The position numbers and the translations under genes are program-made. Positions 1-4,378 of a stretch of 25,871 bases of DNA are shown here, one piece after another. The stretch comes from a virus. The stretch's first letter is position 1. Every line of letters begins with the position of its first letter. The notes below the pieces were generated by a model. That model was given only the letters and a program-made list of their open reading frames with translations, was not told the origin of the DNA and searched no databases. Location: IMG/VR virus record IMGVR_UViG_3300042465_005782, positions 1 through 25,871 of that record. One strand, 5' to 3'.

Positions 1-961
1 TTTCATCCGTGCCTTTTATTGGATCTTCATAAACCAATAAACCTTCACCATTTCTATGTCTTGGTTTACCATAACTTAATTGATTTAATTTATTAGCATC
101 TATAAGAGTATTAGCAGAACCTATGAATGAGCAATTAAATTCCGCATCAAATTGCCTTTCAGAAGTATTTTTGATTTGCTGTTCTTTCCATGCATCATCA
201 CGTAGTGGACCGCCTGGATATTGTGGAATCTCTTTCCAATTAACTTCAAATGGAACATATTCATTTTGTTTTGATATAGCAGCTTTCCATAGCTGATAAT
301 ACATATTCAACCCTTTAGGCGTTGAAATGATAATCATTTGAGTACTTTGACCAGCAGTAATTGTTGGATACACAGATGAAAAGAATTCTTCGGCTACTGT
401 AGTTGGAACGAACGCAAATTCATCCAAAAAAATTATATTGTAACTTCCACCACGAACAGCAGATGATGACGTTGCTGCTGCTAATATTTTAGAACCATTC
501 TCTAAAACAATAGATCCTTTATTCCACTCAACAATACCTTGTTGAAGCCAGTTTGGTAAATATTCATATGCTTCACGAATTCTTGCAAGAATATCTCTAG
601 CTGTATTCAATTTATTTGCAAGAATACAGACATTCATATTTTGATTAAATAAAACTTTATGTAAAAGATAACAACAACCAACGGTAGTTGTTTTTCCAGC
701 CTGCCTAGCAAGTTTACCAATAACGAATCTATTTTTTTCTAAAGTACGAATAAGTCTTTCTTGGTAATCATATAGATCAAAGTCTGTTATACCTTTATCT
801 AATGTAACTACTTTGACATATTTTCTAGCAAAATATACAGGATCACCAGCACATTTCACATATTCTTCTACTTGCTCTTTTGTAAAGTCAATCTTAACAC
901 CAATGGGTTTTAGATTGGCATTTCCAAGATAACCAGGTTTTTTCTGATATTGACTAGACAT
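1..961 (-). CDS. gp17: Large terminase subunit (gp17-like), N-terminal ATPase part, 3' end outside the window
   Basis: ATPase of the DNA packaging motor, which docks on the portal and pumps DNA into the prohead. About 320 residues are visible, read from an ATG at 959-961. A Walker A motif ARQAGKTT lies at residues 85-92 and a Walker B IIFLDE at 176-181, with the catalytic Glu last. A coupling motif STPKG follows near residue 215. The order and spacing match the terminase ATPase fold of T4 gp17. The nuclease domain would follow beyond base 1 and is not seen. The start overlaps the gp16 stop by 8 bp, as expected for a coupled terminase pair, and AAGGA upstream serves as ribosome binding site. 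Only the family assignment is inferred; the motifs are directly visible. Confidence 0.96.
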   Translation of the reverse strand, partial: MSSQYQKKPGYLGNANLKPIGVKIDFTKEQVEEYVKCAGDPVYFARKYVKVVTLDKGITDFDLYDYQERLIRTLEKNRFVIGKLARQAGKTTTVGCCYLLHKVLFNQNMNVCILANKLNTARDILARIREAYEYLPNWLQQGIVEWNKGSIVLENGSKILAAATSSSAVRGGSYNIIFLDEFAFVPTTVAEEFFSSVYPTITAGQSTQMIIISTPKGLNMYYQLWKAAISKQNEYVPFEVNWKEIPQYPGGPLRDDAWKEQQIKNTSERQFDAEFNCSFIGSANTLIDANKLNQLSYGKPRHRNGEGLLVYEDPIKGTDE

Positions 962-1385
962 CAGGTAATTCCTTAGCTTGAGATCGTGATTTATTAATCA
1001 GATTCTGTAAATCTGTTGTAGATCCGACATATATTGAATTATTAGTAATATTTGTAACTTTTTCTTTTTGAATATTTTCTGATTTTTCATGAACAACCAT
1101 TAGATCTTTATTCATATCAGATAATGTTTTTAATAATAATGCTGCAACTTCATACGCTCTTGGAGAATCACTTGCAGAGGCAACTTTCATAATTCCATCT
1201 AACGCATCCATGCCATTATTAATAAGTTCTTTCATATTAGTTCTTGCTGAATTAAAATCAGCCTCAAGAACTTCTTCTTTAGATCTCTTGATTTCTTTTA
1301 CAATTTGAATATCTTTCTTTTCAGGATTTTTTTCAAATGTAGTTTCTAAAGCTTTTGATATATTTTCAAATGGATCTTTTGACAT
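954..1385 (-). CDS. gp16: Small terminase subunit (gp16-like)
   Basis: 143 residues, close to T4 gp16 (about 164). In the family this protein forms an oligomeric ring that recognises viral DNA and regulates the gp17 motor. The centre (about residues 45-110) is a helical segment with the pattern seen in gp16 relatives: a 'NGMDALDGIMKVA' stretch, then 'PRAYEVAALLLKTLSDMNKDL', shown here in part. It is flanked by charged, probably flexible ends. It lies directly between gp15 and gp17, its fixed place in T4-like genomes. The assignment rests on that pattern plus synteny. No enzymatic motif is expected or seen. Confidence 0.88.
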   Translation of the reverse strand: MSKDPFENISKALETTFEKNPEKKDIQIVKEIKRSKEEVLEADFNSARTNMKELINNGMDALDGIMKVASASDSPRAYEVAALLLKTLSDMNKDLMVVHEKSENIQKEKVTNITNNSIYVGSTTDLQNLINKSRSQAKELPDV

Positions 1386-1387
1386 AA

Positions 1388-2137
1388 TTAAACACCATCA
1401 TAATAAGTAATACTTCCTGTTTCTGCATTTCCAGTATATCCTGGGCTTGAAACAAGATTTGAAGGAGCTGATTGCATAGTCATTCCATTGTAAATATTTA
1501 CACGTGCATTTTCTATGATTCCTCCAATATCTCTCTTAATGTTTCCATAAACATAAGATTTCATAGTAAAATTAAAAACACTTGTAACACTTCTTCTTGT
1601 ACTAAAATCACCTTCGTAGTCTTCAGATGTACTAACATCATTTAATACAATCGGAACATCAACTTTTTCATTTAATGAATTATAATTTATCGTTACGGTA
1701 AAATCTGGCGCAAAGAACGGAACGATTTGTTCTATAATTTGTAAATTATCTTCTAAATTTCTAGTGAAAGAGTATAAATTTAAATTAATATTATATGGTA
1801 TTTCAGTAAATGTACTTTCGTTATATCCAGAAACAGAACTCTTTTTCTTATAAATTCTATTTAATTTTCTTGTTGGATCATAAAGAATATTAATTATTTC
1901 AAATCCCATTTTTGGAAATGTTGATTGAATATGTGTATTATCCGTAACACCAGTTTCTGTTGTTAATCTATAAATAAACTTTTCTTTAGGACCATATAAA
2001 ATAGGAACTTTTATCCTATTTGTAATATTATCATTGCTATCTTTTCGTAATATAGTTATTTGATTAAATAAAGTTCCAAATGCAACTATATTTTTACGAA
2101 TAGTTTCATTATAAAATGATACATTTTCTCCAAACAT
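1388..2137 (-). CDS. gp15: Tail terminator / proximal sheath stabiliser (gp15-like)
   Basis: 249 residues; T4 gp15 is 272. The T4 protein caps the tail tube and sheath and joins the tail to the neck. The N-terminal half shows family landmarks: 'NETIRKNIVAFGTLFNQI' near residues 10-27, 'VPILYGPKEKFIYRL' near 43-57, and 'YDPTRKLNR' near 85-93. The C-terminal half carries 'IVPFFAPDF' and 'DYEGDFSTRR', also typical of this family. The start codon overlaps the gp14 stop in TAATG, and AAGGGA lies upstream. The last ~30 residues (Gly, Ser, Thr-rich) look flexible. Confidence 0.92.
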   Translation of the reverse strand: MFGENVSFYNETIRKNIVAFGTLFNQITILRKDSNDNITNRIKVPILYGPKEKFIYRLTTETGVTDNTHIQSTFPKMGFEIINILYDPTRKLNRIYKKKSSVSGYNESTFTEIPYNINLNLYSFTRNLEDNLQIIEQIVPFFAPDFTVTINYNSLNEKVDVPIVLNDVSTSEDYEGDFSTRRSVTSVFNFTMKSYVYGNIKRDIGGIIENARVNIYNGMTMQSAPSNLVSSPGYTGNAETGSITYYDGV

Positions 2138-3018
2138 TAATATTTCCCTTCACTGAATGGATCAGTTTCTGTGAAATCAAATAAATCCTTTTTAGCTCTT
2201 TCATTGTCAAAATCAACATTATCACCATCACTACGATCCTTAACAGGATCAGTAGGTATAATAGTTGTAGTTACGGATCTATTGAATCCTGTATATCCAG
2301 CACCAGACAATGCACCAGAAAGTGTGATACCATTTACATATGTACCAACTTCATCAAATACGTACATATATGAATAGCTGAACCCTTTAGTAAATTGCTG
2401 TACAGTTGCGGTATATCCAGAATGATTCACATATTCTCCAGGTAAATAATTTCCACCTTGTATACCTTTGAGAAGAATTCTTGAAACATACGACTTTCTA
2501 TCATTCGTGGCATTATCAAGAATATCAATGCCAGTATTAAACTCTTCGTGTGAATATACAAAGGCTTCTAGTGTTAGAGTATATGTTGTCAATGCACCTA
2601 ACTGATAGAATGGAATCTCGTCCTCTAGTTTATTAATTTCAAATATAGTCCCAGATAAAGGAAAATATACCAAGTCACCTTCTCTCGGTCTTACAATCAG
2701 TGAATCTTTAGAATATATTTCTTGTTTGAATCGTGTCTTGGATACTTGAATAGTCATTCTATCGGTGATCATAACACCGAATTTACTAATTACATCTGCT
2801 TGACCATCGAATGATAATACAGTTTGAACATAACATTCCAATTGATATGCTTTTGTAAATTTGGATTGAATATCTTCACCCAAAATATTATCCAATTTAA
2901 AATATTCTCTTGGTATATAAAGAATATCAATACCAGTAACTTTAATAGTTTCTATAGTGAGATCATCTATTAACTTTTGATCTAGATTTGAATATTTGAA
3001 AAATGGATTTGTTGCCAT
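2137..3018 (-). CDS. gp14: Neck protein (gp14-like)
   Basis: 293 residues against 256 in T4. With gp13 this protein closes the filled head and gives the tail its docking surface. The family look is clear: an N-terminus 'ATNPFFKYSN', the 'GIDILYIPRE' segment near residues 29-38, and the barrel-like middle 'GDLVYFPLSGTIFEINKLED' followed by 'PFYQLGALTTYTLTLEAF' near 130-150. Those strands recur in gp14 of marine T4-like phages. The C-terminus, roughly residues 185-293, is longer than in T4 and rich in Gly, Tyr and Thr. It starts 2 bp after gp13 with a TAGGT-type ribosome binding site. Confidence 0.92.
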   Translation of the reverse strand: MATNPFFKYSNLDQKLIDDLTIETIKVTGIDILYIPREYFKLDNILGEDIQSKFTKAYQLECYVQTVLSFDGQADVISKFGVMITDRMTIQVSKTRFKQEIYSKDSLIVRPREGDLVYFPLSGTIFEINKLEDEIPFYQLGALTTYTLTLEAFVYSHEEFNTGIDILDNATNDRKSYVSRILLKGIQGGNYLPGEYVNHSGYTATVQQFTKGFSYSYMYVFDEVGTYVNGITLSGALSGAGYTGFNRSVTTTIIPTDPVKDRSDGDNVDFDNERAKKDLFDFTETDPFSEGKY

Positions 3019-3019
3019 A

Positions 3020-3823
3020 TTAACCTACAAAGAAATTTACTGGCAATTCGTGTGAAGTAATAAACTCATTTTCAATCGCAGCTATCTCGCTTACTGCCTC
3101 AGCGTAGATCTGACCGCCTTTCATTACTATACCACCAGGTAGCTGAACACCATCATATTTGGCCATATTCGCTCCCCATTGACGTTTAATTAAGGCTGTT
3201 AAATATTTTTTCAAAAGTCTATCATTAAATATTTTTGTGTATTCTTCTGGATCAAGTGCTGCATATGTTTCAAAAACAATATAGTCACCGACAATAATAT
3301 CGGACAAAGATCCATCAATATGAATTCTATTCGTGACTTTACTGAATCTAATTGCCTTTTCACCTTGAAAGAAATCCTCAATCAATTTAATATATTGTTT
3401 TGTTGAATGATATGAGGCAAGACCCATAGATCCACCACCATTCATACCTCTATTGATTCCGAAATAGTCAACAAGAGCTAATTGATATTTTAAATCAAAC
3501 ATATCAATATTAGCAAAATTACCAAATTGAAATAATTTTACAACAGATATAATATCAGAACCGTTTGGTCTTGCATTTGCATTTCCATTCCAACCACCGA
3601 TATTATTAATATCAATATATTTGTTGGTTTTATCCGTTTGTGTTACTTGATATTTAAAAAATACCTTTTCAACACCATCAAAATGACGTTCAGTAAAGAA
3701 TTGTAAAGCTTCGTCTAGACGATCTTCACATTGTTCTCTATCAACATTTATTTCTATTACTGGACTACCAAGAGTTCTTAATGCATAATCAATAATTGAA
3801 TCTCTTGAATTAGGTGCTGCCAT
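3020..3823 (-). CDS. gp13: Neck protein / head completion (gp13-like)
   Basis: 267 residues (T4 gp13 is 309). It binds the portal vertex after packaging, together with gp14. Diagnostic stretches are 'GSPVIEINVDREQCEDRLDE' near residues 18-37, 'YLTALIKRQWGANMAKY' near 205-221 and 'GVQLPGGIVMKGGQIYAEA' near 223-241, all characteristic of gp13. Expression control is visible in the sequence. A strong Shine-Dalgarno AGGAG lies at 3829-3833, inside a hairpin, with a T4-type late promoter just upstream (see those entries). It is followed without a gap by gp14, gp15, gp16 and gp17, so the promoter probably serves the whole neck/terminase run. Confidence 0.94.
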   Translation of the reverse strand: MAAPNSRDSIIDYALRTLGSPVIEINVDREQCEDRLDEALQFFTERHFDGVEKVFFKYQVTQTDKTNKYIDINNIGGWNGNANARPNGSDIISVVKLFQFGNFANIDMFDLKYQLALVDYFGINRGMNGGGSMGLASYHSTKQYIKLIEDFFQGEKAIRFSKVTNRIHIDGSLSDIIVGDYIVFETYAALDPEEYTKIFNDRLLKKYLTALIKRQWGANMAKYDGVQLPGGIVMKGGQIYAEAVSEIAAIENEFITSHELPVNFFVG

Positions 3824-3826
3824 AAA

Positions 3827-3852
3827 ATCTCCTATTTTATTTATATGGAGAT
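3827..3852 (-). promoter_or_regulatory. Hairpin sequestering the gp13 ribosome binding site
   Basis: Perfect 6-bp inverted repeat: ATCTCC at 3827-3832 and GGAGAT at 3847-3852 on the plus strand, with a 14-nt loop. In mRNA, AUCUCC pairs with GGAGAU, and the latter contains most of the gp13 Shine-Dalgarno. After one U-U mismatch two further A-U pairs are possible. The late promoter octamer is in the loop, so mRNA started there would lack the 5' arm and leave the site free. The stem is short, so strength is uncertain. Confidence 0.6.
3838..3845 (-). promoter_or_regulatory. T4-type late promoter (TATAAATA)
   Basis: An exact TATAAATA octamer on the minus strand, the consensus of T4 late promoters recognised by the gp55 sigma factor with gp33 and the gp45 clamp. 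It lies 14 nt upstream of the gp13 ATG. With the usual spacing, transcription would start near base 3832, just before or within the Shine-Dalgarno. It sits between the stop of the 174-aa gene and gp13, not inside a coding region. Octamers of this sort arise by chance in AT-rich DNA, but position and context favour a real promoter. Confidence 0.75.
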
Positions 3853-3853
3853 A

Positions 3854-4378
3854 TTATTTATTAGTAGGAGCATGAATAGTAACAGGTATCTTTTCAAGAT
3901 CTTTATATGTAATATTGTTTTCTAGATAATATCTTCTCGTAACAGGTTCGATGCCCTCATCTGATTCAGATTTCTTATAATTTGAAAAACCAGGCATTTG
4001 CAATGGACATGCTAATTTTGGATAATCTAATTTAGAATACTCATCACCTTCGGCAATTAGCCAAGTGCCTTTTCTATCTCCACAGCCACAACCTCCACAG
4101 AAAAATTGTCCTGCTGTCGAACTTGGCTTTAAATGTTCACATGGGGGTAATTCCCCACCCTGCTTCATATTACCAAAACAAGATGCTACCCTGAGTTGTT
4201 TTACGGGTAAACTTACTTTATTATTAGATACACCCCGAGATACTATTGCTGATGCAAAATTTTGCATCATGGTCATTTTATTAGCAATAGTATTTTCTTG
4301 TTTAATATCCTGAGTTCTAAATTTTATTTTTTCTTCGTTTTCTTTATTTTCTTTATTTTTTCCACAATTGCAACTCAT
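3854..4378 (-). CDS. Cys-rich protein, putative metal-binding, function unknown
   Basis: 174 residues, not assigned to a family. It opens with CNCGK, then a Lys/Glu/Asn-rich stretch (to about residue 30) likely to be disordered or helical. The core, about residues 75-140, holds six cysteines: one in 'VASCF', one in 'PPCEHL', three in 'FCGGCGCGD' and one in 'LACPLQMPGF'. This spacing suggests a bound metal (zinc or iron-sulphur) rather than a secreted disulphide knot, but that is inference. The start overlaps the stop of the 483-aa Cys-rich gene (ATGA), so the two are probably translated together. It occupies the place of wac/fibritin in T4 but shows no coiled-coil heptads of that protein. A virion or fibre-assembly role is possible. 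Confidence 0.6.
   Translation of the reverse strand: MSCNCGKNKENKENEEKIKFRTQDIKQENTIANKMTMMQNFASAIVSRGVSNNKVSLPVKQLRVASCFGNMKQGGELPPCEHLKPSSTAGQFFCGGCGCGDRKGTWLIAEGDEYSKLDYPKLACPLQMPGFSNYKKSESDEGIEPVTRRYYLENNITYKDLEKIPVTIHAPTNK

Follow-up and report, generated by a model that had tools for sequence, protein, structure and literature searches.

Based on our analysis of sequence and predicted folding, we propose that gp13, the first gene of the neck/terminase operon in an environmental T4-type virus, is probably controlled by a late promoter and a read-through silencer combined in one element, a device of the T4 gene e type that would make gp13 depend on its own promoter. RNA entering gp13 from upstream would contain both arms of a hairpin, fold and bury the Shine-Dalgarno sequence or, in other lineages, the AUG; as the read-through RNA would be folded over the start site, little gp13 would be made from it. 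RNA initiated at the late promoter would instead start at about position 3832, inside the 3' arm (5'-GGAGAUUUUAUG), where the hairpin could no longer form and gp13 would be translated. The working parts of this device are known. What is new is gp13 as the controlled gene, the all-late setting and a clade-wide conservation in which the stems have been re-made. The claim cannot be upheld on the window by itself, and its significance is supplied by the relatives.

Locus and architecture of the gp13 leader

The window, by which we mean the whole stretch of 25,871 nucleotides that was analysed, is a 25.9-kb IMG/VR virus fragment whose minus strand carries virion genes of T4 type: first the genes for baseplate wedge and tail fibres, next an unclassified gene (483 aa) and a Cys-rich one (174 aa), and then gp13-gp14-gp15-gp16. 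A near-identity search of phage records gave no match. All features described below lie on the minus strand. The controlled gene, gp13 (3020..3823), encodes the head-tail adaptor Ad2, a neck protein (phrog_211, E 4.6e-35), and is followed by homologues of gp14 (head closure Hc2, 2137..3018), gp15 (tail sheath stabilizer, 1388..2137) and gp16 (terminase small subunit, 954..1385), so that the label 'neck/terminase operon' used in a preliminary description of this DNA is correct. All recognisable genes 5' of gp13 are late virion genes (baseplate and tail-fibre), the window stopping about 22 kb upstream. The Cys-rich ORF (3854..4378) lies directly upstream of gp13 and its TAA stop (3856-3854) adjoins the hairpin; the 174-aa product matched no PHROG or Pfam family. 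Homologues of this gene are always found immediately 5' of gp13, at 112 related loci (leader classes A, B, C and 0).

On the mRNA strand the leader immediately 5' of gp13 is TAATATCTCCATATAAATAAAATAGGAGATTTTATG. Sequence, inverted repeat and fold define the 5' arm, ATCTCC (3852-3847; extended to ATAATATCTCC, 3857-3847), and together with opening energies also the 3' arm, GGAGAT (3832-3827; extended, 3832-3822), which is the gp13 Shine-Dalgarno. The extended arms make an inverted repeat of 11 nt with one mismatch (91%; 3857-3847 with 3832-3822) that covers the AU of the start codon (ATG, 3823-3821). In the loop lies the T4-type late promoter octamer TATAAATA (3845-3838), whose position is conserved in relatives. 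Checked against the sequence, the coordinates given earlier for promoter, arms and ribosome site proved exact. The T4 late octamer occupies -13 to -6 relative to +1 (PMC2988020), and with this spacing the predicted +1 falls within the hairpin at 3832, the first G of GGAGAU; late RNA would therefore open with the Shine-Dalgarno itself. A second possible anti-Shine-Dalgarno, CTCCTA (3865..3870), pairs with TAGGAG (3834-3829) and is not conserved in the three relatives L001-L003, in which the window hairpin is letter-identical. The octamer TATAAATA shows no enrichment in the window, where it occurs 4 times against an expected 7.6.

Predicted folding of the two transcripts

The preliminary description had called for folding of both transcripts, and the predictions agree with the design it put forward. 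In the read-through RNA of the window the stem is present in the minimum free energy structure and the start site is paired, whereas in RNA beginning at 3832 the 5' strand is absent and the site is open. The computed cost of opening the start site is 10.9 kcal/mol in the read-through RNA versus 1.4 in the late RNA; the same calculation for T4 gene e gives 15.3 kcal/mol for the long RNA versus 1.9 for the late RNA. Taken alone, the window hairpin is near chance, since 10 of 100 shuffled upstream flanks hide the site equally well; the hairpin itself scores z -1.2.

Predicted start-site hiding across gp13 leaders

A wider set of gp13 loci was fetched from IMG/VR by protein homology only; some of the seeds came from the pattern scan described below, but the returned loci were not selected for their leaders. 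Almost all of the homologues have a late octamer shortly 5' of the gp13 ATG. Removal of near-duplicates left 149 leaders. In 141 of them a late octamer is present, defined as NATAAATA or NATACATA, which is a permissive motif where DNA is AT-rich. For the read-through RNAs the free-energy cost of exposing the start region was computed and set against that of RNAs with a shuffled upstream part. The mean z of these 141 leaders was 3.54, and 61% were beaten by at most 1 in 100 shuffles, figures that are descriptive and do not represent independent trials because the rows are related. The corresponding values for 94 other late-promoter genes from five long related contigs, a control set that includes one gp13 (G007) missed by the script, were 0.14 and 7%. 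By set, the start site is hidden most strongly in the leaders around L071 and L076; around L143, where 31% reach the 1-in-100 level, the effect is weaker.

The gene-blind scan of IMG/VR searched for the pattern ATCTCC-TATAAATA-GGAGAT in any context, with shuffled 5' arms as controls. It matched 88 contigs, versus 18 and 8 for two such controls. Among the 71 readable ORFs downstream of the matches 54 were gp13, with identity to the gp13 of the window down to 39%, and the gp13 representatives obtained in this way match phrog_211. The nameable ORFs other than gp13 were homing endonucleases, for which such a device is already known, and a head maturation protease: the promoter-in-hairpin pattern stands before the protease and before HNH and GIY-YIG endonucleases (L070 and L104; L078, L079 and L128; L092).

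Covariation and unrelated stems in sister clades

The preliminary description had looked to relatives for compensatory changes, and these are abundant. Covariation was scored on 33 distinct class A stems whose loops had been cut back to the octamer: the score is 0.347, compared with 0.115 when shuffled (0/500) and at most 0.080 with slid partners. Both sides have changed in 6 of the 10 stem pairs; the four CTCC/GGAG pairs prove nothing, because the alignment was anchored on them, and the signal is carried by the other six. More distant kin have other stems, such as ACTCCAGTCAT/ATGACTGGAGT (L465), CTCCTCTTTA/TAAAGAGGAG (L316) and TCACCTCTGA/TCAGAGGTGA (L428). At the gathering score Rfam gave no match for the window and ten relatives.

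At least three sequence-unrelated hairpins with the same job are found in sister clades. In class A the Shine-Dalgarno is hidden and TATAAATA lies in the loop; in class B (TTGCCATAAATA...ATGGCAA) the promoter's own CAT is paired with the AUG; class C (CTCCTGATGC-tttatacatata-GCATCAGGAG) has a variant octamer, whose promoter activity is assumed. On the gp13 tree class B makes up one clade (43 rows, support 96) and class C another (11 rows, support 99), while class A occupies 55 of the 59 rows of a single clade (support 97), many of which came via the pattern scan. We also considered class B as a general promoter consensus and rejected it, as GC precedes the octamer in 0 of 37 other CATAAATA genes at the gp13-homology loci. 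In other phages (L480-L558) TTGCCATAAATA...ATGGCA is also seen 5' of other virion genes, several ORF clusters among which resemble baseplate and sheath proteins; this occurrence may reflect either the device or a promoter habit.

The expectation that the repeat would be kept wherever relatives keep gp13 fails for L004, L005, L010 and L013, in which gp13 is present and the hairpin absent. These four rows all fall within the window's own nine-row subclade and are most simply read as losses. In L004 and L005 the space of the 5' arm is taken by the end of the upstream gene, whose stop lies 13 and 21 nt, respectively, ahead of the gp13 start codon.

Comparison with known systems and cultured phages

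In T4, the genes e, soc, 49 and I-TevI have a hairpin that hides the ribosome-binding site in the long RNA, while the late RNA is translated (PMC3014915, PMC2988022); the transcripts on which genes of this type sit code for early and middle products as well (PMC2988022, PMC3014915). The gp13 leader resembles e, soc and 49 in that a late promoter lies inside or beside the helix burying the Shine-Dalgarno or AUG of long transcripts (PMC3014915); in those genes the 5' strand is missing from the late RNA, which is translated, and the opening energies of e are similar to those of the window. However, e, soc and 49 are found on transcripts with early or middle products, whereas gp13 here is placed among late virion genes and heads the neck/terminase operon. 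At I-TevI, I-TevII, I-TevIII, segB and mobE a sequestering hairpin is likewise combined with a late (or middle) promoter, from which a transcript without the hairpin arises (PMC2988022), but these genes are mobile, non-essential and located in early/middle units, while gp13 is a core virion gene. The split ribosome site hairpins of T4 genes 25 and 38 are likewise conserved leader hairpins of late genes, 25 being a virion gene (PMC3014915), yet they lie between Shine-Dalgarno and AUG and raise translation, whereas the gp13 device buries one or the other. Sequence and folding support the preliminary description in placing a T4-e-type device, a late promoter within a ribosome-site hairpin, at gp13. 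Its suggestion that this is a new use also stands, in that no description of the device at gp13 was found in the open-licence literature, an absence that is weak evidence.

Among the cultured phages whose gp13 was examined, the device is absent from T4, Melnitz, HTVC008M, P-SSM2, Cr30, DLP6, phiN3, P-TIM40, S-CREM1 and others, and Mosig and S-SM2 have weak versions at most. In S-BM3, C48C1 and Kc304 our reading of the sequence places a terminator-like hairpin, and after it a late octamer, directly 5' of gp13. This arrangement would likewise separate gp13 expression from upstream transcription, but it would act by termination, with the hairpin located upstream of the promoter and the start site not hidden. 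The gp13 of Synechococcus phage S-CAM9 (L477 301-1422) is a 373-aa protein that aligns in two pieces, pointing to an insertion of roughly 100 aa.

A model for gp13 control

What would be the purpose of such a device? The T4 rationale, silencing of early and middle read-through, does not suit the window. Insulation is favoured instead, because the recognisable genes upstream of gp13 in the window are late virion genes, because in pelagimyophages and cyanomyophages a hypervariable host-recognition region borders a neck gene, named gp14 (PMC7029224), and because some cultured relatives have a terminator plus octamer at this place; the argument is thus one of position and analogy. The likely purpose would be to tie the first gene of the conserved neck/terminase operon to its own late promoter, independently of any transcription that enters from the variable tail-fibre region. 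The sequence features, the predicted folds, their conservation and covariation and the specificity for gp13 come directly from the analysis; we infer the +1 at 3832, translational repression by the hairpin in vivo and insulation as the purpose.

A broader version of the model is offered tentatively, as a possibility that we rate somewhat short of even: in numerous T4-related lineages from the environment, a hairpin that evolves fast and encloses a late promoter may serve as a boundary insulator of the virion core, standing between the conserved gp13 neck/terminase operon and a variable host-recognition region, with unrelated stems re-made in different clades and a terminator plus promoter used instead in some cultured phages. 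A device regarded as special to a few T4 genes on early/middle transcripts appears to be permanently built into a core structural operon across many environmental phages, and it suggests a way in which phages may keep the output of core genes independent of an adjoining, exchangeable host-range region. The silencer reading predicts exact mRNA starts and start-codon accessibility. In uncultured phages, the covarying stem also provides a mark by which genuine late promoters can be identified. Among the points against a silencer, the window hairpin is weak alone, four near relatives are without it, and the cultured phages examined have the device weakly or not at all.

Alternative explanations

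The strongest rival is translational coupling to the upstream gene, in which ribosomes finishing the Cys-rich gene would open the stem on read-through RNA and the late promoter would be an uncoupled second source. Since the upstream stop codon directly adjoins the stem in the window, coupling could open it; the gap between stop and 5' arm is often short elsewhere too (median 3 nt in class A, 12 in B and 8 in U3), and the upstream gene belongs to the same family at all 112 loci. However, gaps extend up to 129 nt and are beyond the reach of a terminating ribosome in many class C, U2, U3 and U4 loci, and coupling alone leaves the nested promoter unexplained. We consider coupling unlikely.

An intrinsic terminator would stop upstream transcripts just before gp13, with the nested late promoter restarting transcription. 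T runs do follow class C and some class A stems, and the terminator-like hairpin and octamer of S-BM3, C48C1 and Kc304 provide a precedent before gp13 itself. Nevertheless, counted strictly, 12 of the 116 strong stems have a T run behind the full stem, a figure that is too low because in class A the T run lies partly inside the extended stem; in addition, class B stems include the start codon and the stems are AT-rich. As most stems have no following T run, termination is an improbable general answer; class C stems and some of those in class A could nonetheless both silence and terminate.

That a genuine late promoter in the window is merely flanked by a repeat that arose by accident is a reading to which we give very little credence, even though the window's hairpin is weak by itself and has been lost in four near relatives. 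The window and L003 share 42 identical leader nucleotides while the fourfold sites of their gp13 genes are 62% identical; with that level of divergence such a stretch has a probability of about 2e-9, unless local recombination, which could be an alternative source of the identity, has acted; moreover, hairpins are found at the same place across the clade. For the gp13 hairpin family, chance is rejected by the pattern scan with its controls, the leader z-scores and the covariation, while for the window taken alone it would be plausible. Least credible of all is a DNA-level palindromic operator, at which a protein bound to the inverted repeat would repress the late promoter: the repeat is centred on the promoter and I-TevI is a known autorepressor overlapping its own late promoter (PMC2988022), but pairing persists although arm sequence and loop length vary without constraint, a freedom that a site for a specific protein would not tolerate, and the interior non-Watson-Crick pairs lean towards G-U over A-C (17 to 7), a weak sign of RNA given that the rows are related.

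Other leader layouts

The read-through silencer proposed for gp13 is accompanied in the collection by further leader arrangements. In a fourth layout, found in the gp13 leaders of L366, L367, L372, L373, L379 and L380 (TATAAATAGTCCTATAG...TATAGGACTAT), the promoter ends inside the 5' arm and the +1 would lie within that arm. The octamer ends 6 nt before the gp13 ATG in L051, L052, L053, L060 and L239; late gp13 mRNA would therefore begin one base before the AUG and be virtually leaderless. Finally, L206 has nearly the same long hairpin leader as L335 and L338 ahead of clearly different gp13 types, which suggests a cassette-like exchange of the gp13 leader.
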